The notes under the pieces are model-generated. The model saw nothing but the letters and a program-made list of their open reading frames with translations, ran no database searches and was not told the DNA's origin. From positions 1 through 45,187 of the forward strand of contig JAGVAH010000057.1 of the NCBI GenBank assembly GCA_020060385.1: a stretch of 45,187 nt of DNA, written 5' to 3'. Positions 5,362 to 17,931 of this stretch are shown here, one piece after another; the stretch's first letter is position 1; each line of letters starts with the position of its first letter. This DNA is from Syntrophobacterales bacterium. GTDB taxonomy: Bacteria > Desulfobacterota > Desulfobaccia > Desulfobaccales > 0-14-0-80-60-11. The translations under genes and the position numbers were made by a program.

Positions 5362-5823
5362 TAGTCCTCCTTTGGGGAACTGCCGGTTGATGGGCTAATT
5401 GCCCTGCACCCCTGTCCGGGGATGCTGCGGGTGCGCCTGCTCAACCTGACCTATCTTGTTTTAAGGAGAACCTTCTCCACCGGAGTCTTAACGGCTGGGG
5501 ACAGTTATCCCCCCTCGCACCGACTACCGGCAACTAGAATCACACCAAAAGCCAGGCCGGTCTGATCAAGCAGGCCGCTGCTTTCCGTTTCTCTCACCCT
5601 TCCTCCTTTCCGGGTGGTCCTCACCACCCCGGAATTTCACGGCGTGTTTGCCGGCCAGAAACCAAAATCCCTAAAATTTCAAACCTGCTTTCCCCCTGGC
5701 GGGAGGGAAGAGGGAGAGGGAGGTTATCCATGCCGAGTTAAATGGATAAGGCCCTTCCCCTCCCGCCAAGGAGGAAAGGTGGTGTCGGGACGGCCGCCGC
5801 GCCATCCGTGGGAAGACGATTCC
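5362..5823. other. 462-bp gap with dyad and long imperfect hairpin
   Basis: No convincing gene was found here. Two structures stand out. A perfect dyad GGAGAA-CC-TTCTCC lies at 5465-5478, about 105 bp before the NifX-like ATG. A long imperfect inverted repeat spans 5689-5777 (listed separately). No sigma-54 promoter matching both elements was found directly before 5361, so this NifX-like gene may be read from the promoter near 6069-6084. Confidence 0.5.
5689..5777. repeat. Long imperfect inverted repeat
   Basis: The left arm (5689-5714, containing GGCGGGAGGG) pairs with the right arm (5752-5777, containing CCCTCCCGCC). An inner pair, TTATCCAT at 5724-5731 and ATGGATAA at 5742-5749, extends the hairpin. 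It is the size and style of a dispersed palindromic element. It lies between the small NifX-like gene and the next NifX-like gene on the same strand, so it would fold in their shared transcript. Confidence 0.6.
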
Positions 5824-6018
5824 TCAATGGTCACAGACGTTGGGGCCGCTCCCCAAAGTCCCGGCAAGGTAACCCCGGACCAGGGTCTCCGTTTCCTGGC
5901 TGGGGCTGCCGGTGATCACCCTGATACCTTGTGCGGCCAGACGGGATTCGTCTGCCCCTCCCCGGAAATTATTCTGGAGTCCGCCCTGTCTCCCCCGGCC
6001 GCTTCGACAGGTGCTCAT
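5824..6018 (-). CDS. Half-length NifX-like protein (C-terminal part only)
   Basis: This short 64-residue gene ends GIRVITGSPSQETETLVRGYLAG...GPNVCDH. That is the characteristic C-terminal half of PF02579 proteins of the MTH1175 type, which commonly end in an N-V-C-D-H pentad. The N-terminal strand and the DxxFGR region are absent, replaced by a basic Gly/Arg-rich leader. It does not look like a decayed remnant of a longer gene, because AAGGAG is placed 9 bases before the ATG (a TTG six bases earlier is less well placed) and a sigma-54-like promoter lies just upstream. It could pair with a full-length paralogue or be a truncation. I am fairly sure of the family and unsure whether it functions. 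Confidence 0.6.
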   Translation of the reverse strand: MSTCRSGRGRQGGLQNNFRGGADESRLAAQGIRVITGSPSQETETLVRGYLAGTLGSGPNVCDH

Positions 6019-6068
6019 ATCCAACCACTCCTTTTGGGAAAACCGGTTATTATTTGTGAATCCATTTG

Positions 6069-6084
6069 ATCAAATACTATGCCA
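6069..6084 (-). promoter_or_regulatory. Sigma-54-like promoter before the half-NifX gene
   Basis: The minus strand reads TGGCATA-GTAT-TTGAT with correct -24/-12 spacing. It departs from consensus at the critical -12 position (GA instead of GC), which may make it weak. The start would be near 6058, about 40 bases before the ATG at 6018. Two copies of the GCAAAATGC core lie about 80-120 bp further upstream, which strengthens the call. Confidence 0.5.
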
Positions 6085-6134
6085 ACGATAAATTTGAGCA
6101 GGATAGAGGATTCTGCCAGGACGCTATGAGTTTT

Positions 6135-6189
6135 AAGGAGCAAAATGCTCCCTAAGTTCGCCAGAAAGGAAGCAAAATGCTCCCTAAGT
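6135..6189 (-). promoter_or_regulatory. Tandem activator sites (two GCAAAATGC dyads)
   Basis: Two near-identical 23-24-bp direct repeats lie at 6135-6157 and 6166-6189. Each has a dyad around GCAAAATGC (GGA-GCAAAATGC-TCC in the first) followed by CTAAGT. The cores are 32 bp apart, close to three helical turns, so two dimers could bind the same face. They sit at activator distance from the promoter at 6069-6084. Binding by the neighbouring sigma-54 activator is inferred. Confidence 0.6.
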
Positions 6190-6267
6190 CCTCAGGACGC
6201 AGACCCCCATCTTTTCTCTTCCATAAAAAATTTCCTGGTATTTCAGGATGGGCAGACAGTCCGGAGG

Positions 6268-6981
6268 TTAGGGCGGGGTGATCCCCTTCCGGGCCACCAT
6301 GACCAGGCAGGCCCCGGTGGGGAGATGCAACTTTTTTCCCAGCTTTTCCAGATAAGGATAATAGCGCAAAAGGCGGCGATTCTTCCAAGGAGGAAAGAAG
6401 ACGGCCTGGCCGCGGCGGAGATCTGCCAGCTCCGGGCAGCCGGAGAGGAGGCGCCTTAAGCCTCTGGCAGTGAGGAAATGGACCTGGCGCCACAGGGAAG
6501 GCCGGAACCAGGACCTGATGAGCCGTTTCAGGGTCCAGGGGCTGTAGCGGTTCAGCACGGCCACCGCCACAAACCCTCCGGCGCGCAGCACCCGGACCAT
6601 CTCCTGAAGGACCGTCTCCCGCTCCCTCATGAAGTCCAGGGCCAGAACGCATAATACTCCATCGAAACTTGCATCCCCAAAGGGTAGAAGGGAGGCCAGG
6701 CCCTGGACCCAGGCGAGGGCCGGGCCTTCCGGCCTGCTCTTGTCTCGGGCCCGGGCCAGCATGGGGCCGGAGGCGTCGAGTCCCACCACCCCTGCCCCCC
6801 GCCGGGCCAGGGCCAGGGAGAGGTTGCCGGTGCCGCAGCCAACTTCCAGGAGGCGCAGACCACTAATCTCAGGGAGGAGGGCAAAGATGGCCTCCTGCTC
6901 CACCCGGTCCACCAACTGCCCCAGGGGGGTGCGGTACCAGCGGTCATAAGCCGCGGCTTGGCCGCCGAAGGTTGGACCCAT
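6268..6981 (-). CDS. Class I SAM-dependent methyltransferase
   Basis: This 237-residue protein is of the methyltransferase-11 type. Motif I LLEVGCGTGNLSLAL is near residue 48, the acidic residue ending strand 2 is in VGLDASGPM near 70, and LPFGDASFDGVLCVLAL near 100 carries motif IV. The C-terminal third is basic and aromatic (NRRLLRYYPYLEKLGKKL) and may bind the substrate. The ATG at 6981 is used because the residues upstream belong to another frame, inside the activator gene. It lies 17 bp after the activator stop and is likely co-transcribed. UbiE/BioC-like annotations would be generic; the substrate is unknown. A second methyltransferase (1176-1739) sits in the neighbouring operon. Confidence 0.85.
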   Translation of the reverse strand: MGPTFGGQAAAYDRWYRTPLGQLVDRVEQEAIFALLPEISGLRLLEVGCGTGNLSLALARRGAGVVGLDASGPMLARARDKSRPEGPALAWVQGLASLLPFGDASFDGVLCVLALDFMRERETVLQEMVRVLRAGGFVAVAVLNRYSPWTLKRLIRSWFRPSLWRQVHFLTARGLRRLLSGCPELADLRRGQAVFFPPWKNRRLLRYYPYLEKLGKKLHLPTGACLVMVARKGITPP

Positions 6982-6998
6982 GGACCCGGATTTTTTCC

Positions 6999-8282
6999 TT
7001 AGATGGCTTTCCTGGGGGGGGTGAGCCCGTAGCGGGTGATTTTGCGGCGCAGGGTGCCTTTGTCGATGCCCAGTTCCCGGGCGGTGGCCAGGCGCCGCCA
7101 CTGATGGCGTTCCAGCGCCTCCCCCAGGGCCCTTTTTTCGATCTCCGCCAAGGTCATGCCGGTGAGGAGCAGACCCGACTGATCTTCCGGTTGCAGGTGC
7201 TCCGGCAGATGCCGGGGCTGGATAAGTCCCGAGGGGCAGAGGATGAAGGCGTGTTCGATGGCGTTTTCCAGTTCCCGGACGTTGCCCGGCCAGCCGTGTT
7301 CCATGAAGACGGCCAGCACCTCGTGGCTCAAGCCCAGGATCCTTTTTTCCTTCAGCTTGTTGAACCGCTCGATGAAGTGCTGGGCCAACAGGGGGATGTC
7401 CTCTTTGCGTTCGGCCAGCCGGGGCAAGGTCAGCTTCACCACATTGATGCGGTAGTAGAGATCGGTGCGAAAGGCCCCTTCTGCCACCAGCTTGGGCAGG
7501 TCCCGATGGGTGGCGGTGATGATGCGCACGTCGGCCTTGAGGCTTTTGGAAGATCCCAGGGGCATATAGGACCGATCTTCCAGGACCCGGAGCAGCCGCA
7601 CCTGCAGGGCCGGAGAAATGTCGCCGATTTCGTCCAGGAACAGGGTCCCTTTTTCCGCCAGGGCAAAGCGGCCCAGTCTGTCCTTCCGGGCATCGGTGAA
7701 GGCCCCGGCGGTGTGCCCGAAGAGCTCCGATTCCAACAGGGTATCCGGAAGCGCCCCGCAGTTTACCGCCACGAAGGGGCCTTGAGCCCGGCGGCTCAGG
7801 TTGTGCAGGGCCCGGGCCACCAGTTCCTTGCCGGTGCCGGACTCCCCCTGGATGAGCACGGTGCTGTCGGAGCGGGCGATCTCCGGCAGCATGGCGAAGA
7901 TTTTGCGCATCTGGGGAGACTTGGACAGGATGTCCCCCAGGCGGTATTGCCGGTGGATCTCCCGGCGCAGTTCCTCCACCAGGCTTAGATCCCGGAAGGT
8001 CTCCACCCCGCCGATGATCTCCCCGCTCTCGTCCTTGAGGAGGGCGGTACTGACGCTGATGGGGATTTCCCTGCCGTCGGCCCGGAGGATGGCGATGGCC
8101 CGGTTGACCACGGGCTTGCCGGTCTCCAGGGTGTGCCGCAGCACACAGGCCGATTCACAGACGCTGGCCCGGAAGACTTCGCAGCACGGCTGCCCCAGGG
8201 CTTCCGCCGCGGGTAAGCCGATGATCTCCTCCGCGGCCTGGTTGAAAAAAGTCACCCGCCAGTCCAGGTCCACCGTGAACAC
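6999..8282 (-). CDS. PAS-AAA+-Fis sigma-54-dependent transcriptional activator
   Basis: The frame encodes a bacterial enhancer-binding protein of at least 427 residues. A PAS domain (residues 1-100) contains an unusual cluster C33, C34, C42 and C46. The AAA+ domain has Walker A GESGTGKE at 146-153, a sigma-54 contact loop GAFTDA at 193-198 in place of GAFTGA, and Walker B LFLDEIGD at 214-221. A Fis-type helix-turn-helix follows at about 385-425. The GTG at 8282 is only the first usual start codon. The frame stays open upstream and encodes the expected PAS beginning (ILNSIADG), so the true N-terminus is longer or the frame is shifted. It probably controls the sigma-54 promoters in this block, as a cognate activator does for the Desulfovibrio ORP operons. 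Confidence 0.88.
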   Translation of the reverse strand: MFTVDLDWRVTFFNQAAEEIIGLPAAEALGQPCCEVFRASVCESACVLRHTLETGKPVVNRAIAILRADGREIPISVSTALLKDESGEIIGGVETFRDLSLVEELRREIHRQYRLGDILSKSPQMRKIFAMLPEIARSDSTVLIQGESGTGKELVARALHNLSRRAQGPFVAVNCGALPDTLLESELFGHTAGAFTDARKDRLGRFALAEKGTLFLDEIGDISPALQVRLLRVLEDRSYMPLGSSKSLKADVRIITATHRDLPKLVAEGAFRTDLYYRINVVKLTLPRLAERKEDIPLLAQHFIERFNKLKEKRILGLSHEVLAVFMEHGWPGNVRELENAIEHAFILCPSGLIQPRHLPEHLQPEDQSGLLLTGMTLAEIEKRALGEALERHQWRRLATARELGIDKGTLRRKITRYGLTPPRKAI

Positions 8283-8299
8283 GCCGTCGGCTATGCTGT

Positions 8300-8473
8300 T
8301 CAGGATGATTGCGGTTTGGGTGGGGAGGTGGGGCGCAGGTCTGACTTGGGCGCGCTCCTGGCTTGAGTCCCTCTGGCCGCGCGCCCCTGGAGCTGCCGCC
8401 CCGGGATTTGCTTTTCTAACCGTTCCCAGACCTCCTGGAGAAGTTCCTGTAATTTCATATTATTATATTCCAT
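8300..8473 (-). CDS. Small ORF upstream of and overlapping the activator frame
   Basis: This 57-residue ORF starts MEYNNMKLQELLQEVW and has an amphipathic helical first half (residues 6-25) and a Ser/Pro/Arg-rich tail. Its last 150 bases overlap the open upstream extension of the activator reading frame in another phase. One explanation is a real small protein. Another is that it is the true N-terminus of the activator, joined by a frameshift somewhere in the C-rich stretch 8300-8420. The helical first half looks like coding sequence; the tail does not. No known family was recognised. Confidence 0.4.
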   Translation of the reverse strand: MEYNNMKLQELLQEVWERLEKQIPGRQLQGRAARGTQARSAPKSDLRPTSPPKPQSS

Positions 8474-8516
8474 TATCGTCCCGCCTTCAAGCCGCCCCGG
8501 GTGCAAAAGGTGACGG

Positions 8517-8690
8517 TTAATAGCTCACTTCCCCTTGGTTTTCCAAATAAGAGAGCTCTTTTCGCAGCCACTCGTTTTCCTTCTCCAGTTCCTCCACCCT
8601 TTTCACCAGCCAGGCTGCTTCTTCCCGGCTTAAGCCGTCCGGGCCTTGAGCCAGCTTATCCTTGATCTGGGCCATTCTGGTGCTCATCAT
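8517..8690 (-). CDS. Small coiled-coil protein
   Basis: This 57-residue acidic helical protein is supported by a very good ribosome binding site, AGGAGG 6 bases before the ATG at 8690 (a second ATG follows immediately). The central part reads SREEAAWLVKRVEELEKENE and continues as a leucine-heptad coiled coil to about residue 50. It lies between the NifX/zinc-ribbon fusion gene and the activator gene on the same strand, so it is probably part of that operon. No known domain was recognised. It may be a partner or oligomerisation factor, but nothing in the sequence shows its target. Confidence 0.65.
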   Translation of the reverse strand: MMSTRMAQIKDKLAQGPDGLSREEAAWLVKRVEELEKENEWLRKELSYLENQGEVSY

Positions 8691-8838
8691 CGGCTGCCTC
8701 CTGGGGGTTTATGCATTTCCGGCCTGGGGTCATCAAGCCAATGACCGTTTGCTGCTTGGCTAGCGCCAGAGCGGTAACGATCCTGCTCTTCCCGCTACCG
8801 CCCGGGACGCAGGCTCGAAGGTTAATCAGCAGGCGCAT
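8656..8838 (-). pseudogene. Possible remnant of a MinD-type ATPase
   Basis: A 60-residue ORF begins 6 bp after the stop of the NifX/zinc-ribbon gene and contains VPGGSGKSRIVTALALAKQQ. This resembles the KGGTGKT deviant Walker A and first helix of MinD/Mrp ATPases but lacks the signature lysine. It then loses similarity and runs into the small coiled-coil gene. It may be a decayed start of a third ATPase, or a chance similarity. Confidence 0.25.
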
Positions 8839-8844
8839 TTTTCT

Positions 8845-9414
8845 TTAGGCCCGTTCGGTGAGCTGATGGCACCGGGGGCATCGGACCTCCGCGCAAGGAA
8901 TGCCCTGTTCATGGGGGACCCGGAACCCGCAGGCCGGGCACTGACAGAACCCACCCGGCCCTAATCCACGTGCGGCCGGGGGACTGGCGGGACCGCGGTC
9001 TATGCCCCGTCTTCTGGTCTTAGACTGCCCCTGGCAGGGGGACCCCTTTTCCTCCCGCCAGCCGCTGCGGTAGCGGCGCAGCCCCCGGCAGCCGGGCAGC
9101 CAAAACCTGGGATGATCCAGGGTGTTCTGCCAGTATGATTGCACGACTTCCGGCACCTCCCCGGCCACGCCGCTCACCACGGTGAGGCCGAGGTGCCGGG
9201 CATAGCGCAGGAGGTCGGCGCTCAAGGCCCCGCAGATCAAGGTGGTGACCCCCTGGTTCCGCAACTCTTGCAGGCGTTGGGCCGCATCCAGATGGGGCAG
9301 CGCCAGTTCCTGCCCTGCGCTCGCCGGGGCGGGCTCTTCCGGGAAAATCCGAATCCGGGAACACCAGTTCAATACGGGGGCCACCCGGGACCGCAAGACT
9401 GCAATGCCCAGCAT
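8845..9414 (-). CDS. NifX-like protein fused to a zinc ribbon
   Basis: This is a 189-residue two-domain protein. Residues 1-105 are a divergent PF02579 domain: MLGIAVLRSRVAPVLNWCSR, then the helix and strand QGVTTLICGALSADLLRYAR and GLTVVSGVAGEVPEVVQSYW. A basic, low-complexity linker (about 110-150) leads to a ribbon, FCQCPACGFRVPHEQGIPC then RCPRCHQL. This ribbon is nearly the same as the stand-alone protein at 4596-4823. The N-terminal DxxFGR motif is not conserved, so cluster binding may have changed. A sigma-54 promoter at 9487-9501 and a GGGAG sequence 6 bases before the ATG support the start. It appears to head the operon that also holds the activator gene, which suggests autoregulation. 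Confidence 0.8.
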   Translation of the reverse strand: MLGIAVLRSRVAPVLNWCSRIRIFPEEPAPASAGQELALPHLDAAQRLQELRNQGVTTLICGALSADLLRYARHLGLTVVSGVAGEVPEVVQSYWQNTLDHPRFWLPGCRGLRRYRSGWREEKGSPCQGQSKTRRRGIDRGPASPPAARGLGPGGFCQCPACGFRVPHEQGIPCAEVRCPRCHQLTERA

Positions 9415-9484
9415 TCTAAACTCCCACCAGGCTCAACCTGTGCAAACGGAGCGATAACAAAATGCAGATAGTTCTCAAACCACT

Positions 9485-9501
9485 TAGCAGATTGCGTGCC
9501 A
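9485..9501 (-). promoter_or_regulatory. Sigma-54 promoter of the NifX/zinc-ribbon-activator operon
   Basis: The minus strand reads TGGCACG-CAAT-CTGCT, with the -24 GG at 9500-9499 and the -12 GC at 9488-9487. It has a single departure from the consensus TGGCACG-N4-TTGCW. The start would be near 9475, about 60 bases before the ATG at 9414. It is divergent from the promoter at 9688-9703. Confidence 0.7.
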
Positions 9502-9553
9502 ATCCCCTTTATCAGCGCATCTCTGGGCTTGGATCAGCAGACCCAATTTTTCG

Positions 9554-9571
9554 GGCCGCAAAATGCACCCC
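9554..9571. promoter_or_regulatory. Putative activator site shared by divergent promoters
   Basis: The plus strand reads GGCCGCAAAATGCACCCC, with the shared core GCAAAATGC at 9558-9566. It lies about 87 bp upstream of the leftward sigma-54 start (about 9475) and about 152 bp upstream of the rightward one (about 9714). One site could therefore serve both. The rest of the 393-bp gap 9415-9807 shows no convincing gene. Confidence 0.5.
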
Positions 9572-9687
9572 GTTTCCGAGAATATCTTGTTTCCGACTTT
9601 TAGCGAGTTGTGCAGTTGCTTTTCCCCAAGACCCAGAAACACCTGATAGAGGCCACTGCCTTGTCTGGGCCGGGAGAATCTGGCACA

Positions 9688-9807: not shown

Positions 9808-11433
9808 ATGGGTAATCGGACCGGGAGGAAAGTGGGCGCCATCCTGGTGGCAGGCGGCGGCATCGCCGGGATGCAGGCCAGCCTGGATGCCGCGGCCGCG
9901 GGGTTTAAGGTCTATCTCGCGGAGCGGGACATCTCCATCGGCGGGGTGATGGCCCAGTTGGACAAGACCTTCCCCACCAACGACTGCTCCACCTGCCTCA
10001 TATCCCCCAAGCTCATCGAAATCGCCAAGCACCCGGACATCGAGATCCTGACCCAGGCAGAAATCGTGCGCCTGGAGGGGGAAGCGGGGCATTTTACCTT
10101 GACGCTTAAGCGGCAACCCCGTTATATTGACGCGGCCAAGTGCAATGCCTGCGGCGCCTGCGCGGCGGCCTGCCCGGTGCAATTTCCTTCCAACTTCGAC
10201 GAGGGCCTGGGAACCCGCCCCGCGGCCTACCGCCATTTCCCCCAGGCAGTGCCCTCCACCTTTGCCATCAAGAAATACGACCGGGCTCCCTGCCGCGGAA
10301 CCTGTCCCGCGGGCATCAACGTCCAGGGTTATGTGCAGCTCATCAAGATCGGCAAATACCAGGAAGCGATGCAGCTCATCATGGAGCGCCTGCCCCTGCC
10401 CGGGGTCCTGGGGCGTATTTGCCCCCACCCTTGCGAGGACCAATGCCGCCGCCGGGAGGTGGATGCCCCGGTGGCCATCTGCGGGCTCAAGCGCTTCGCC
10501 GCGGACCAGGTGGATCTGGGGGTCATCTCCCTGCCCCTGGTGGCAGCCAGGGCGGAAAGGATTGCCATTATCGGCTCCGGCCCCGCGGGCCTGGCCTGCG
10601 CCTATCATCTGGCCCGGCGGGGTTACCGGCCCACCATTTTCGAAGCCCTGCCCTTACCCGGGGGCATGCTCCGGGTGGGCATCCCTGACTACCGCCTCCC
10701 CAAGGAGGTGTTGGATCGGGAGATCGACCATATTTTGCGGCTGGGAGTGAGATTGCAGACCAATACCGCGCTGGGCCGGGATTTCACCCTGGATGATCTA
10801 TTTAAGCAGGGCTATCAAGCCGTGTTCCTGGGGATCGGCTGCCACCGGGGCAAACCCCTGGGCATTCCCGGAGAGGAGGCGGACGGCGTCATTCAAGGGG
10901 TGGAGTTTCTCAGGCGACAAAACCTGTCCGAGCCCTTAACGTTGGGACGGAGGCTGGCCGTCATCGGCGGCGGCAACGTGGCCCTGGACGTGGCCTGCAC
11001 CGCGCGTCGCCTGGGCGCGCAAGTGACCATCGTCTACCGCCGCTCCCGGGAAGAGATGCCCGCGTTCGCCCATGAAATCGAGCAGGCCCTGTGCGAAGGG
11101 GTGGAGATCCTTTACCTGGCCGCGCCCCTTAAAGTGGTGACCGGCAGCCACGGCCAAGTCACCGCCTTGCTCTGCCAGAAGATGGAACTGGGGGAGCCCG
11201 ACCCCTCGGGCCGCCGCCAGCCGGTGCCCCTTCCCGGAGCCACCTTCCAGCTGCCGCTGGAGATGGTGGTCCCGGCCATCGGCCAGGAAGCGGCCCCGGA
11301 GCCGCTTAAAGCCTGCGGCCTCAAACTCTCCCGCCGGGGGACCATAGAAGTCAACGCTGTAACCTACGAGACTTCCCGGCCTGGGGTCTTTGCCGGGGGG
11401 GGACGTGCACACCGGCCCCTGGATCGCCATTGA
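9808..11433 (+). CDS. hdrA: HdrA-GltD-HdrA flavoprotein, 5' part (frame broken at G8 run)
   Basis: This is the first 541 codons of a very large HdrA-family oxidoreductase. The FAD-binding motif AGGGIAG is at residues 15-21, with HdrA's C60 and C63 in PTNDCSTCLISPK and a 4Fe-4S motif at C112/C115/C118/C122. From about residue 150 a complete glutamate-synthase small-subunit (GltD-like) module is inserted: CRGTCPAGINVQGY, three cysteines at 205/209/213, FAD motif GSGPAG at 256-261 and NADPH motif GGGN at 387-390. The GltD similarity runs to FAGG and continues one frame over as DVHTGPWIAIEAVAGG. The break falls in eight consecutive G at 11395-11402, where seven would keep the frame. HdrA proteins branch electrons between flavin and Fe-S partners; NAD(P)H is the likely donor or acceptor through the insert. 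Confidence 0.88.
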   Translation: MGNRTGRKVGAILVAGGGIAGMQASLDAAAAGFKVYLAERDISIGGVMAQLDKTFPTNDCSTCLISPKLIEIAKHPDIEILTQAEIVRLEGEAGHFTLTLKRQPRYIDAAKCNACGACAAACPVQFPSNFDEGLGTRPAAYRHFPQAVPSTFAIKKYDRAPCRGTCPAGINVQGYVQLIKIGKYQEAMQLIMERLPLPGVLGRICPHPCEDQCRRREVDAPVAICGLKRFAADQVDLGVISLPLVAARAERIAIIGSGPAGLACAYHLARRGYRPTIFEALPLPGGMLRVGIPDYRLPKEVLDREIDHILRLGVRLQTNTALGRDFTLDDLFKQGYQAVFLGIGCHRGKPLGIPGEEADGVIQGVEFLRRQNLSEPLTLGRRLAVIGGGNVALDVACTARRLGAQVTIVYRRSREEMPAFAHEIEQALCEGVEILYLAAPLKVVTGSHGQVTALLCQKMELGEPDPSGRRQPVPLPGATFQLPLEMVVPAIGQEAAPEPLKACGLKLSRRGTIEVNAVTYETSRPGVFAGGGRAHRPLDRH

Positions 11434-14281
11434 GGCGGTGGCCGGGGGGATGGAGGCCGCGGCATCCATTGACCGCTATCTCCAGGGCCTGGACCTGAGC
11501 TCCGGCCGCGGCCAGGGCCAGGAAGCCCAACGGCGCTGGGCGGCAATTGCCAAGGACCTGGAAGCTCGGCCCCGGGAAGTGATGTCCGCCCTGCCCCCGG
11601 ATTACACCTGCGCCTGTTTCGACGAGATTGCCCAGGGCTTTACTGCCGAGCAGGCCCAGAAGGAGGCCGACCGCTGTCTCAACTGCGGCGGCTGTTCTGA
11701 ATGTATTCAGTGCGTGGAGGCCTGCCAGGCCGGGGCCATAGACCACCTGCAGACGCCCCGGGAGCAGACCCTGGAAGTGGGCGCCTTGATCCTGGCCCCG
11801 GGGTTCAGGCCCGTCGATGCCCATTTGAAGCCTGAGTACGGCTACGGCCGCTATCCCAATGTCATCACCTCCCTGGAGTTCGAGCGGGTGCTGTCCGCCA
11901 CCGGTCCTTTCGGCGGCCGCGTGCAGCGGCCCAGCGACGGCCAGGAGCCCAAGAAAATCGCCTGGATTCAGTGTGTGGGCTCCCGGGACCCGTCCATGGG
12001 CCGGGAATATTGCTCCTACGTCTGCTGCATGTACGCGGCCAAGCAGGCCATCATTACCCGGGAACACGCCCCCCAGATTGAGCCCACCATCTTTTTCATC
12101 GACTTCCGGGCCCAGGGCAAGGGGTTCGACCGCTACTACGAGCGGGCCCGGAGCGAGCACGGGGTGCGCTTCATCCGGGCCATGATCTCCCGGGTGGCCC
12201 AAGACCCCCGCTCCCATAACCTGGAGCTGAATTACGTGGACGGGGATGACCGCATGCAGACGGAGGAATTCCACCTGGTGGTGCTCTCGGTGGGTCTCAC
12301 CCCCCACCCGGCCTCCCGGCAACTGGCCCTGGTGTGCGGCATCGATACGGATAAATGGGGCTTCGTGGCCAACCCGCCCTTTAAGATGGTGGAGACCAGC
12401 CGCAAGGGGGTCTTCACCTGCGGGGTCTACCAGTCGCCTAAGGATATCCCCGAGAGCGTGGTCCAGGCCTCTGCGGCCGCGGGGGCTGCGGCCACACTTT
12501 TGAGCGAGGCCCGGGGCACTTTATTATCCAAGGAAGAATATCCCCCGGAACAAGATACCTCCGGGGCGGAACCCCGCATCGGCGTTTTTGTCTGCCATTG
12601 CGGCATCAACATCGCCGGGGTGGTGGACGTGGCGAAGGTCAGCGATTACTGTCTCACGCTGCCGCACGTGGTTTATGCGGATCACTACACCTTCACCTGC
12701 GCCACCGACTCTTTAGAGGCCATGCGCCAGGTGATCGAGGAGCACCGGCTCAATCGGGTAGTGGTGGCTTCCTGCAGTCCCCGGACCCACGAAGCCCTGT
12801 TCCAGGACAACCTGCGCAAGGCCGGTCTCAACAAGTATCTGTTCGAGATGGCCAATATCCGGGACCAGGACTCCTGGGTGCACCAGAAAAACCCCGGTCT
12901 GGCCACCGAGAAGGCCAAGGAACTGGTGAAAATGGCGGTGGCCCGGGCCGCAGTGCTGGAGCCCTTAAGGGAAATGCCGGTCCCGGTCAATCAACGGGCC
13001 CTGGTGGTGGGCGGCGGCCTCGCAGGTTTGACCGCGGCCCAAACCATCGCCGATGCGGGATATCGGGTCTATCTTCCTGACCTGCAACAGCGCTTCGGGG
13101 GAAGCCTGGCCCAAGACATGCGCTACACCCTGGAAGGCCATGCCATCCAACCCTTTGTGCACGAAGTGGTGACCCGGGTGGAAATGCATCCCAATATCCG
13201 TTGGTGGGAAGAGGCCCGAATCATCGGCTTCTCCGGACACCAGGGGAATTTCCGGTGTGAATTGGAGTCGCCCCGGGGCAAGTGGGCGGTTCACATCGGC
13301 GCAGTGGTGGTGGCCACCGGCGGCCAGGAATGCCCCCCCCAGGATTATCTGTACGGGGAGCATACCAAGGTGTTGACCCAAATCGAGTTGGAAGCCCTAT
13401 TGGCGGATGCGCCGAGGGACTTGGGCGAGGCCCCCACGGTGGCCATGATTCAATGCGTGGGCTCCCGGGAGCCGGAGCATCCGTATTGCAGCCGCATCTG
13501 CTGCGGCGAGGCCGTGAAAAATGCCCTGAAAATCAAGGAAATCCGTTCCCAGGCCCAAGTATATATCCTCTACCGGGACATGCGCACTTACGGCCTAAAG
13601 GAGATCTACTATAAAAAGGCCCGGGATCTGGGGGTGCGCTTCATCCGCTATGAACCTCCCCGCAAACCGGAGGTGAGCCCCGCAGGTGAGGGCCTGATGG
13701 TCTCCGTCTTTGATCAGAACCTGAAGGCCACCATCCACCTGCAAGCTGATTATCTGGCCCTGTCCGCGGCCATCCGGCCCCATCCGGTGGCTCAGGAGAT
13801 TGCCGCTCTCATGAAGCTGCCCCTGGACGCAGACGGCTATTTCATGGAAGCCCACCTAAAACTGCGGCCCCTGGACTTTGCGGTCAATGGCATCTTTCTC
13901 TGCGGCCTGGCCCACAGCCCCAAGTTCATCGAAGAGTCTATCGCCCAGGGCCAGGGAGCCGCGGCCCGGGCCCTGGGGGTCCTGGCCCAGAGGGTCATGT
14001 ACGTGGGCGGCGCGGTGGCCGTGGTGGACCCCCAAAAATGCGCCATTTGCCTCACCTGCCTGCGCACCTGCCCCTTCGGGGTGCCCCGGGTGGACCCCGC
14101 CGAAGGCGTCATTACCATTGACGCCGCGGCCTGCCAGGGCTGCGGCAGCTGCGCCAGCGCCTGCCCCAGGAAGGCCATTGAAGTGATGCATTACCGGGAT
14201 CGGCAATTTCTCCCCAAGATTGGCGCGATTCAAAGTTCTGATGCTTCTGATAGTGTTATTGACGGCAGGGCAGGTCATTAA
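11390..14281 (+). CDS. hdrA: HdrA-GltD-HdrA flavoprotein, 3' part (second HdrA unit)
   Basis: This 963-codon frame continues the protein above from the end of the GltD module. It contains a Cys-rich cluster at 96-112 (CLNCGGCSECIQCVEAC), the rest of the first HdrA unit (IQCVGSRD, YCSYVCCMYA), and then a second HdrA unit starting near residue 405 with VFVCHCGINIAG. The second unit has its own FAD motif VGGGLAGLTAA near 540 and a second IQCVGSRE. It ends in a ferredoxin domain with two 4Fe-4S motifs (CAICLTCLRTC and CQGCGSCASAC). The HdrA interface sequence SCSPRTHEALFQ is intact. Joined, the product is about 1,490 residues. No hdrB, hdrC or mvhD gene is adjacent, so its partners are unknown. 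The apparent start at 11390 is an artefact of the frame break. Confidence 0.88.
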   Translation: MPGGDVHTGPWIAIEAVAGGMEAAASIDRYLQGLDLSSGRGQGQEAQRRWAAIAKDLEARPREVMSALPPDYTCACFDEIAQGFTAEQAQKEADRCLNCGGCSECIQCVEACQAGAIDHLQTPREQTLEVGALILAPGFRPVDAHLKPEYGYGRYPNVITSLEFERVLSATGPFGGRVQRPSDGQEPKKIAWIQCVGSRDPSMGREYCSYVCCMYAAKQAIITREHAPQIEPTIFFIDFRAQGKGFDRYYERARSEHGVRFIRAMISRVAQDPRSHNLELNYVDGDDRMQTEEFHLVVLSVGLTPHPASRQLALVCGIDTDKWGFVANPPFKMVETSRKGVFTCGVYQSPKDIPESVVQASAAAGAAATLLSEARGTLLSKEEYPPEQDTSGAEPRIGVFVCHCGINIAGVVDVAKVSDYCLTLPHVVYADHYTFTCATDSLEAMRQVIEEHRLNRVVVASCSPRTHEALFQDNLRKAGLNKYLFEMANIRDQDSWVHQKNPGLATEKAKELVKMAVARAAVLEPLREMPVPVNQRALVVGGGLAGLTAAQTIADAGYRVYLPDLQQRFGGSLAQDMRYTLEGHAIQPFVHEVVTRVEMHPNIRWWEEARIIGFSGHQGNFRCELESPRGKWAVHIGAVVVATGGQECPPQDYLYGEHTKVLTQIELEALLADAPRDLGEAPTVAMIQCVGSREPEHPYCSRICCGEAVKNALKIKEIRSQAQVYILYRDMRTYGLKEIYYKKARDLGVRFIRYEPPRKPEVSPAGEGLMVSVFDQNLKATIHLQADYLALSAAIRPHPVAQEIAALMKLPLDADGYFMEAHLKLRPLDFAVNGIFLCGLAHSPKFIEESIAQGQGAAARALGVLAQRVMYVGGAVAVVDPQKCAICLTCLRTCPFGVPRVDPAEGVITIDAAACQGCGSCASACPRKAIEVMHYRDRQFLPKIGAIQSSDASDSVIDGRAGH

Positions 14282-16099: not shown

Positions 16100-17815
16100 C
16101 TAAGCGAAGAGTTCCCGATCACGAATCTTCCGGGCATCAGTATAGTCCTCGTCCCACCAGGGCACCTCCCCCGCACTGCGGGGAGGCTTGGCCAGCACCA
16201 GCTTCTTTTTGGCCTTCTTCACCTCCTGCCGCTTTACCCGAAAATGGTAGTGGTCGAAGAGGCGCAGCGCCTCGACAACATAAGAGACTGCAATGCGGCG
16301 GTCCCTTATGAGTAGCAGGTTTTCCCCGTTCTTTGTGTCCGCGGTGGAGGAGAAGTTATAGGAGCCGAGATAGACCCGGGCCGTGGGCTTGTCGAAATCG
16401 ATGACCACGAATTTGTGGTGCATGCGGTTACCGCCACCGCCCTTGGGCTCCGCGGAGAACGGTTCCGGGATGTTCTTGGTGAGGGCCCCGGGGTACACCG
16501 GCGCCACATTGCCATCGGGTTTCAGCAAATCGATACCGCCCACCTTACGGTCGGAAATACCATAGACGAAGATGGAGTCGTCTTGGGTAACTGCCTTAAT
16601 GGCCTCCAGAATGACCCCCGGGGTCTGGTAGAGGAACGCCAGGGAATAGAACAGGCTCGACTTGGTCTGCGTCCCGATGTCCTCGGCAATCTCCTGCAAC
16701 AGGGCGTTCTTGGGTGCATGGGGCGAGAATCCCACCCGCGCGTCTATCCCTGCTAATCCGAGATCCCTCCATTGGGCCGCGGCTGTTTTTCCAAATCCGG
16801 AAGCATCGTCATTTTGCCAGTAGGCGTCAAAGGCTGCGAGGAAGGCCTGGACCGCGTTTTGGCCTTGCATCACCACGGCGTTATTCGCTTGCACAAAGAA
16901 CCCCCGCCAGGAGAAATTGGTGGAGCCGCACACCACTGTCTGCACCTGGGGACCGTCGACCACGATGGTCTTGTTATGCTGCAATTTGCCCAGGTGTTGG
17001 CGCTTCACCTGGTCCTTACCGGCTGAGAGTGACAACCGCTTCTCCGCCAGCGTCTCAGCCGCCTGGGCCGCGCCATGGGGTCCATCATTGTCGATGATTA
17101 CCCTCAGCCTTGGGCCGAGCTGTTCCAGGCGTGAGACGACCTCCGGTTGGTTAAGATCATAGGCCACCACTCGCACCTGAGCCTGCTGGTCGGCGAGCGC
17201 CCGGTCAAGCACCTCGAGGATGGCGTCCCGGGCCTCGAACCCCATCCACGCCAGGGCCTCTTCAGCCTTGGGATGGGTGGGCTCGAAGGTCAATCCTTTG
17301 TCTGCCTCCGGCGGCAGCAGCTGGTCGATGGGCCCCGCGGCTTCGTATCTTTCCACGAAGGCCTGGGAAGACACGAAGCCGCGGGTGAAGGCCACGTTGA
17401 GCTGTCCCGGATAGGTCTCCCGCCGCAGTTCGATTGCAGCCTTCTGGGTCTCCCCGTAGCTCAGCTCCTCTGCTTCGTTCATGAAAACCGGAGCGACCTG
17501 GTAGATGAATTCGCCGGGGAGGTCGGCATGGCGCGGGAAATGCACCCAACGGAATTTCTGGATCGGTGCGAGTCTGGTGGGTTGAGGCTTCGGGTTTACC
17601 TTGCCATCGACGCCGAGGAAAGACAGGCGATTTTTCAAGGGGAAGAACTGGTAGCCGCCGGGTTCCTGATACTCAATGGCAAAGCCTACGAAATCCTGGG
17701 GTGGCTTGCCGTTTCTCCAGTTCATTGCCAGGAGGGTCATACCGTCGCCGCGATGAAGTTTCAGTGTAAACAACGCGGCCGCGTTCCTGCCACTAACCTG
17801 AAATTCACCACTCAT
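16100..17815 (-). CDS. Phospholipase-D-superfamily protein with two HKD motifs
   Basis: This 571-residue protein has two HxK(x4)D catalytic motifs: HNKTIVVD followed by CGSTNFSWRG in the middle, and HHKFVVID followed by LGSYNFSS near the C-terminus. Both motif pairs look intact, so one active site per monomer is expected. The N-terminal 180 residues match no family I recognise. No signal peptide or membrane helix is visible, which points to a cytoplasmic phosphodiesterase or nuclease rather than a secreted lipase. GGAGG lies 7 bases before the ATG at 17815. It interrupts the nuo operon between nuoM and nuoN, with gaps of 116 and 126 bp, and is not a complex I subunit. It was probably inserted later. 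The substrate is unknown. Confidence 0.88.
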   Translation of the reverse strand: MSGEFQVSGRNAAALFTLKLHRGDGMTLLAMNWRNGKPPQDFVGFAIEYQEPGGYQFFPLKNRLSFLGVDGKVNPKPQPTRLAPIQKFRWVHFPRHADLPGEFIYQVAPVFMNEAEELSYGETQKAAIELRRETYPGQLNVAFTRGFVSSQAFVERYEAAGPIDQLLPPEADKGLTFEPTHPKAEEALAWMGFEARDAILEVLDRALADQQAQVRVVAYDLNQPEVVSRLEQLGPRLRVIIDNDGPHGAAQAAETLAEKRLSLSAGKDQVKRQHLGKLQHNKTIVVDGPQVQTVVCGSTNFSWRGFFVQANNAVVMQGQNAVQAFLAAFDAYWQNDDASGFGKTAAAQWRDLGLAGIDARVGFSPHAPKNALLQEIAEDIGTQTKSSLFYSLAFLYQTPGVILEAIKAVTQDDSIFVYGISDRKVGGIDLLKPDGNVAPVYPGALTKNIPEPFSAEPKGGGGNRMHHKFVVIDFDKPTARVYLGSYNFSSTADTKNGENLLLIRDRRIAVSYVVEALRLFDHYHFRVKRQEVKKAKKKLVLAKPPRSAGEVPWWDEDYTDARKIRDRELFA

Positions 17816-17931
17816 AGTCAATCCTCCAAGTAAGAATTAAGGTCGGGTAACTGCCTCAAAAATGGACACGAAATGCCTAACAACTTCATATTATATGCCT
17901 CACCTTGCCGCCACGGCCAGGTCTGTGAGGC

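Follow-up and report, generated by a model that had tools for sequence, protein, structure and literature searches.

Fusions of heterodisulfide reductase with glutamate synthase were described in Desulfobacterium autotrophicum in 2009 and named HdrL (PMC2702500). The HdrA subunit of the MetFV-HdrABC-MvhD complex of Moorella thermoacetica follows the same order of parts over 1,487 residues, carries two Glu/Lys pairs and displays NADH:viologen activity (PMC9430772; reviewed in PMC5861303). In the type III HdrA of ANME-1 and Bathyarchaeota, a GltD module resides in the HdrA ferredoxin domain and has been proposed as the entry point of NAD(P)H (PMC12054007). GltD-less double HdrA proteins of MetFV complexes have two HdrA units, no GltD insert, and occur in the same operons as the GltD-bearing kind. 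Finally, Nfn and Stn enzymes employ a GltD-type FAD/NADPH module that feeds the Fe-S chains of a bifurcating enzyme; they contain no HdrA, and their bifurcating flavin is in the NfnB or StnAB module.

The gene studied here lies in a stretch of 45,187 nucleotides from a Syntrophobacterales bacterium (assembly GCA_020060385.1, contig JAGVAH010000057.1), hereafter the window. Positions 9808-14281 of the + strand encode an HdrA FAD/ferredoxin part, a GltD module, the rest of HdrA, a second HdrA unit and a double ferredoxin tail. This is the order given in a preliminary description of the locus, and a Pfam domain search on the joined protein (1,490 residues) recovers it, with GltD inside HdrA unit 1. 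While this outline stands, the same description also claimed a single chain and a second full HdrA: the window itself is in two frames, and unit 2 is incomplete. Nor is the arrangement novel, the architecture being already known as HdrL and as Moorella HdrA. The layout below is based on Pfam and on alignments to solved chains, with HdrA equivalents in 5ODC HdrA numbering; C67 and C18 denote paralogues in the same genome and L061 an orthologue from the same genus.

9808-11433, + strand: ORF 1 (541 aa, from the ORF list), N-terminal half of HdrA unit 1 and most of the GltD module
9832-10272, + strand: HdrA unit 1, first half (residues ~9-155; alignments to solved chains, cysteine conservation)
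10276-11674, + strand: GltD cassette (residues ~157-622; Pfam, alignments)
10300-11632, + strand: exchanged piece, a C18-like segment (residues 165-608) in an otherwise C67-like gene (breakpoint scan)
11390-14281, + strand: ORF 2 (963 aa, from the ORF list), final part of GltD, remaining HdrA unit 1 and second HdrA unit
11395-11402, + strand: run of eight G (G8) with a single-base frame break (comparison with orthologue L061)
11675-12523, + strand: HdrA unit 1, second half (residues ~623-905; alignments, residue conservation)
12566-12994, + strand: HdrA N-terminal domain ahead of unit 2 (residues ~920-1062), with cysteines 929, 931, 964 and 989
12995-14008, + strand: HdrA unit 2 (residues ~1063-1400; alignments, residue conservation)
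14021-14188, + strand: C-terminal two-cluster ferredoxin domain (residues ~1405-1460)

Unit 1 begins straight at the FAD domain (HdrA residue ~147), with no N-terminal domain ahead. Its first half holds a FAD dinucleotide motif, Cys60 and Cys63, equivalent to Cys194 and Cys197 of 5ODC HdrA, and the ligands of the first cluster of the inserted ferredoxin domain (C112, C115, C118 and C122). HdrA residues up to 290 align before the GltD module and those from 292 after it; the module thus separates the two inserted-ferredoxin clusters, as in archaeal type III proteins. The cassette contains two Fe-S clusters, a FAD site and an NAD(P)H site with the sequence YRRSREEMPA. Beyond it, the second half of unit 1 contributes the second inserted-ferredoxin cluster and a flavin-near Fe-S cluster (C722, C735, C739 and C740). 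Unit 2 has a FAD motif of its own and Fe-S cysteines 1216, 1227, 1231 and 1232; it is not a full HdrA, since it lacks the Cys197 ligand as well as an inserted ferredoxin domain. As first counted, three FAD sites are recognisable in the joined protein (residues ~10, 251 and 1064), and the fully conserved cysteines allow about nine [4Fe-4S] clusters, where seven or more had been announced. Both units carry the Glu/Lys pair known from bifurcating HdrA flavins (E692/K745 and E1195/K1237). It is invariant in unit 1 (52 of 52 rows), while the unit-2 Glu and Lys are present in 31 and 32 of the 52 rows, respectively.

The one-unit layout of canonical HdrA, as in HdrABC, is therefore not what we observe: N-terminal domain, inserted ferredoxin, Cys197 and C-terminal ferredoxin domain are divided between the two units. 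In the solved structure of HdrABC, a dimer, Cys197 of one copy supplies the missing ligand to the N-domain cluster of its partner (PMC9012536). The window chain, then, probably adopts such a dimeric fold within itself, an arrangement which the same study proposes for fused HdrAs. The type II fused double HdrA described there likewise has two units, which lack Cys197 and the N-terminal domain in a complementary way; in these ANME fusions, however, the two features occupy opposite halves compared with the window chain. Structure prediction for the HdrA1-GltD part of a relative (12 rows) gave a mean pLDDT of 67 and a pTM of 0.48, with a good GltD core and poor ferredoxin linkers. Foldseek recovered the GltD fold and an HdrA match spanning the insert (8rwn).

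The resemblance to Moorella HdrA (PMC9430772) extends to length, domain order, GltD inside unit 1 and a unit 2 without inserted ferredoxin domain, and the spacing of the Glu/Lys pairs is near-identical (696/750 and 1204/1246 in Moorella, 692/745 and 1195/1237 here). Unlike the Moorella complex, the window copy has no adjacent hdrBC, mvhD or metVF and its frame is broken; its GltD carries the YRR loop discussed below, whereas the Moorella enzyme is described as NADH-dependent and would be expected to have a GltD of the LES type. By published description, HdrL1-3 of Desulfobacterium autotrophicum HRM2 (PMC2702500) share with it the HdrA/glutamate synthase fusion, an NADH site, a sulfate-reducing host and the presence of several paralogues per genome. 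However, each of them is next to mvhD, and two of the three are selenoproteins; no mvhD accompanies the window copy, and its sequence contains no Sec codon. Type III HdrA differs by its single HdrA unit; here a second unit spans residues 920-1460. As to Nfn/Stn, the GltD module is present, but Pfam detects no NfnS or HydBC-type partner domain in the window chain.

ORF 1 and ORF 2 are in different frames and overlap at the G8 run, 3' of which ORF 1 goes out of frame, so that no single chain is open in the window as sequenced. Dropping one G restores the expected GltD reading ...VFAGGDVHTGPW... The orthologue L061 (89% identity, intact frame of 1,499 aa) has one base fewer at the break and no G run (GCCGCGGGAGACGTG vs GCCGGGGGGGGACGTG), and reads GCC GCG GGA GAC GTG at this position. 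The chain of about 1,490 residues proposed initially is therefore genuine, and the break is private to the window genome or its assembly. Three paralogues in the same genome align end to end with the joined protein (C67, 70%; C18, 59%; C89, 50%), each being one single ORF of 1,487-1,498 aa, and the same domain order is seen in dozens of relatives. These intact homologues, obtained by the search for the same order that had been suggested at the outset, rule out separate genes joined by assembly error.

Whether the break is biological is another matter. A redundant hdrL duplicate, freshly inactivated by an insertion in the G run, would account for the extra base relative to the orthologue and for the orphan position of this copy. 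In addition, further G/C runs of eight or nine in the window lie within long ORFs: errors at such runs are not a general feature of this assembly, which leaves room for a real mutation at G8. However, just one lesion is present in 4.5 kb, every cofactor ligand is retained, the orthologous frame is intact, and dN/dS against the orthologue is 0.18 on the 5' side of the break and 0.16 on the 3' side, values that do not indicate long-standing decay. We thus regard a pseudogene as rather unlikely, and the break as either a sequencing or assembly error or a mutation that arose very recently, in a gene previously under purifying selection. The run sits exactly at the junction of the overlapping ORFs, where programmed frameshifting or transcript slippage could yield the full chain; such use is very improbable, as a +1 (or -2) shift would be required and the orthologue, devoid of the G run, requires no shift. 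An Rfam search of the whole window and a tRNA search gave no match.

GltD modules fall into two types according to one loop of the NAD(P) Rossmann fold, which follows its second strand: the window copy and C18 have YRR, C67 and C89 have LES or LET. Residues after beta strand 2 are a classical determinant of the choice between NADP and NAD. The solved NADP(H)-linked homologues whose alignments were inspected (NfnA/NfnABC, StnC and NfnB/NfnI) have YRR, and in the other type an acidic residue takes its place. From this we infer an NADP(H)-type module in the window copy and an NADH-type module in C67; the YRR GltD would make the window copy NADP(H)-dependent, while its closest paralogue would be NADH-dependent. 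It may also be that the two loops mark two lineages using the same nucleotide, and that GltD was exchanged without any change of cofactor. The second Rossmann motif does read GGGN[VA]A in all rows inspected, while GXGXXG was taken as a sign of NADH in the work on archaeal type III proteins (PMC12054007), and our literature search found no enzyme assay of a YRR-type HdrL. Weighed against the loop residues and their state in the solved NADP(H) enzymes, a common nucleotide appears doubtful to us, and we retain the assignment of two cofactor types.

Comparison with the paralogues reveals two different affinities within the window gene. Its HdrA parts are 75-85% identical to those of C67 and its GltD only 50%; with C18, GltD is 78% identical and the HdrA parts 46-61%. 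A breakpoint scan delimits a segment, residues 165-608, that is C18-like at 136 of 159 informative sites, the sequence outside being C67-like at 316 of 365 (0/5000 shuffles); it falls within the insert limits, 157-622, that were set against GltD-less proteins. Judged from its sequence, the window copy is a C67-type body with a C18-type GltD, candidate donors being C18-type, L100-type or other YRR lineages. Phylogenies agree: in the GltD tree, the YRR and LES/LET types are separated by a fully supported branch (100/100), and constraining the window copy with C67 is rejected by the AU test (p = 3.6e-8); in the HdrA tree, constraining all YRR rows together is rejected as well (p = 5e-39). The states YRR, LES and no insert require 14 changes on the tree of HdrA parts and 16 on a tree from unit 2 alone, which is far from the insert. 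The GltD insert has thus been gained, lost or switched at least 14 times on the HdrA-body tree, to be compared with the two insertion events reported for type III HdrA (PMC12054007). Locus L100 (8991-11624) holds another mosaic hdrL, whose first ~630 residues are C18-like and the remainder not. Its breakpoints differ from those of the window copy, indicating that recombination between these paralogues is recurrent.

We found nothing in a literature search on GltD-module exchange between HdrA paralogues. What is new here is that GltD, along with the cofactor type predicted for it, has been gained, lost and exchanged repeatedly; the window gene illustrates this clearly. On balance, we lean towards viewing the insert as an exchangeable cofactor cassette: recombination between paralogues would repeatedly place an NADH-type, an NADP(H)-type or no GltD at the same site of the scaffold, so that the hdrCB-hdrA-mvhD-metVF system exists in three electron-donor versions. 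If true, a sulfate reducer would possess NADH and NADPH versions of the same subunit. A scaffold and operon occurring with either module or with none constitute a natural experiment on the electron donor, and show how moving one module can re-wire a bifurcating enzyme.

Which partners may serve the window copy? The preliminary description saw no adjacent hdrB or hdrC; our marker search found neither gene anywhere in the window, nor mvhD, metV or metF. The neighbourhood of the orthologue L061 has none of these genes either, save one weak MvhD-like match (33%). Marker searches in relatives reveal a recurring operon, hdrC-hdrB-X-mvhD-metV-metF followed by another HdrA-like gene, and a second one, metF-X-mvhD-metV-metF. 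X is a double HdrA with GltD insert (e.g. L050, L069, L092, L065; L011, L071) or, at the same operon position, a double HdrA without it (L075; L088). The genes mvhD-metV-metF are also found at C67 and C18. In the orphan-bearing genomes of the genus (G000 and G003), hdrB-hdrC accompany a histidine kinase and a response regulator with no hdrL between them (C73/L094; L101). In G002 and G004, an hdrL is kept with this set of hdrB-hdrC and kinase genes and the orphan is absent, the G004 case extending over two contigs; the other three of the seven genus genomes have neither the orphan nor an hdrL with hdrB-hdrC/kinase. With seven genomes, HdrBC as an in-trans partner of the orphan hdrL is only a lead. 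Candidate partners encoded elsewhere in the genome would be HdrBC on contig C73 and MvhD-MetVF on contig C67.

Several features of these neighbourhoods deserve mention for their own sake. On contig C73, the hdrB-hdrC, kinase and regulator genes at 3216-7107 of L094 lack the hdrL that a relative, L070, has there. In the window, ~4 kb between a conserved upstream gene and hdrL (5619-9685) are absent from the orthologous locus L061; they contain a methyltransferase-like ORF, a sigma-54-type regulator and a small ORF. At 16103-17821 on the - strand, a protein with two HxK-type motifs reads as phospholipase D family-like, and its ORF sits between nuoN- and nuoM-like genes of what reads as a complex I cluster. 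A GltD-less double HdrA of the same genome (L012, 172-6108, - strand) adjoins two mvhD-like genes and two ORFs that read as molybdopterin oxidoreductase/formate dehydrogenase-like, a neighbourhood that suggests a formate-linked version of the double-HdrA scaffold.

Taken as a whole, the window gene is likely to be an orphan paralogue of the HdrL/Moorella HdrA type, of the YRR, NADP(H)-type class, with partners in trans and predicted bifurcation. It is best read as a putative variant in which an NADH-type HdrA subunit has become NADP(H)-type; it would use HdrBC, MvhD and perhaps MetVF encoded elsewhere. NAD(P)H would reduce the FAD of the inserted GltD module, and electrons would travel through the clusters of GltD and of the inserted ferredoxin domain to the unit-1 FAD. 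This flavin would split them, or join them in the reverse direction, between a high-potential acceptor reached via HdrBC/MvhD and a low-potential carrier. In metVF operons, the high-potential acceptor is plausibly methylene-THF via MetVF (methylene-/methyl-THF E0' -200 mV, PMC5861303). The NAD(P)H-linked, probably bifurcating HdrA-type enzyme envisaged at first is well supported by homology, given that Moorella HdrA oxidises NADH (PMC9430772) and that the Glu/Lys pairs are present, and we would expect the window enzyme to bifurcate. The partners of the window copy would be supplied from elsewhere in the genome. The M. thermoacetica complex, studied by Mock in 2014, is said to have given no methylene-THF reduction with NAD(P)H in vitro, which leaves bifurcation unproven even in the best-studied relative. 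The manner in which MetVF-type methylene-THF reductases are coupled to energy conservation remains to be settled, both for acetogens and for sulfate reducers that have the Wood-Ljungdahl pathway; the window genome encodes acetyl-CoA synthase and DsrAB, and thus has marker genes for this pathway and for dissimilatory sulfite reduction.

We may also hypothesize a transhydrogenase-like hub of the Nfn/Stn kind, connecting NADP(H) with ferredoxin and a third acceptor but having no link to methylene-THF. The chains nearest to the GltD module are indeed NfnA/NfnABC and StnC, and metVF is not adjacent. However, the nearest HdrA bodies are found in hdrL-mvhD-metVF operons, the chain has no NfnS-, HydB- or NuoF-type partner domain, and the FAD of StnC-type GltD is not the bifurcating flavin (PMC10482914). 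We consider such a hub unlikely and favor the NADP(H)-type HdrA subunit with partners in trans.

HdrA-type matches occur in the relatives from all 59 same-phylum genomes, many of them with full-length versions; named relatives include groundwater and sediment Deltaproteobacteria/Syntrophales bins, Desulfobulbaceae, Asgard archaea and Chloroflexi. Some HdrL and GltD-less double HdrA genes have an in-frame TGA at the Cys197 equivalent (FPTNDCAMU): L039, L044, L052 (two genes) and L014 (8180-11734, + strand), one of these genes being in the window's own genome (contig C93). At this shared cluster ligand, the codon probably specifies selenocysteine. The survey from which type III HdrA took its name covered archaea only (PMC12054007); we observed the type III layout, with GltD inserted in an HdrA of one unit, at L053, L055 and L073, where mvhD and a further HdrA-type gene come next. 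These loci are in Desulfobulbaceae-type bins and in G002, a genome of the window's genus.
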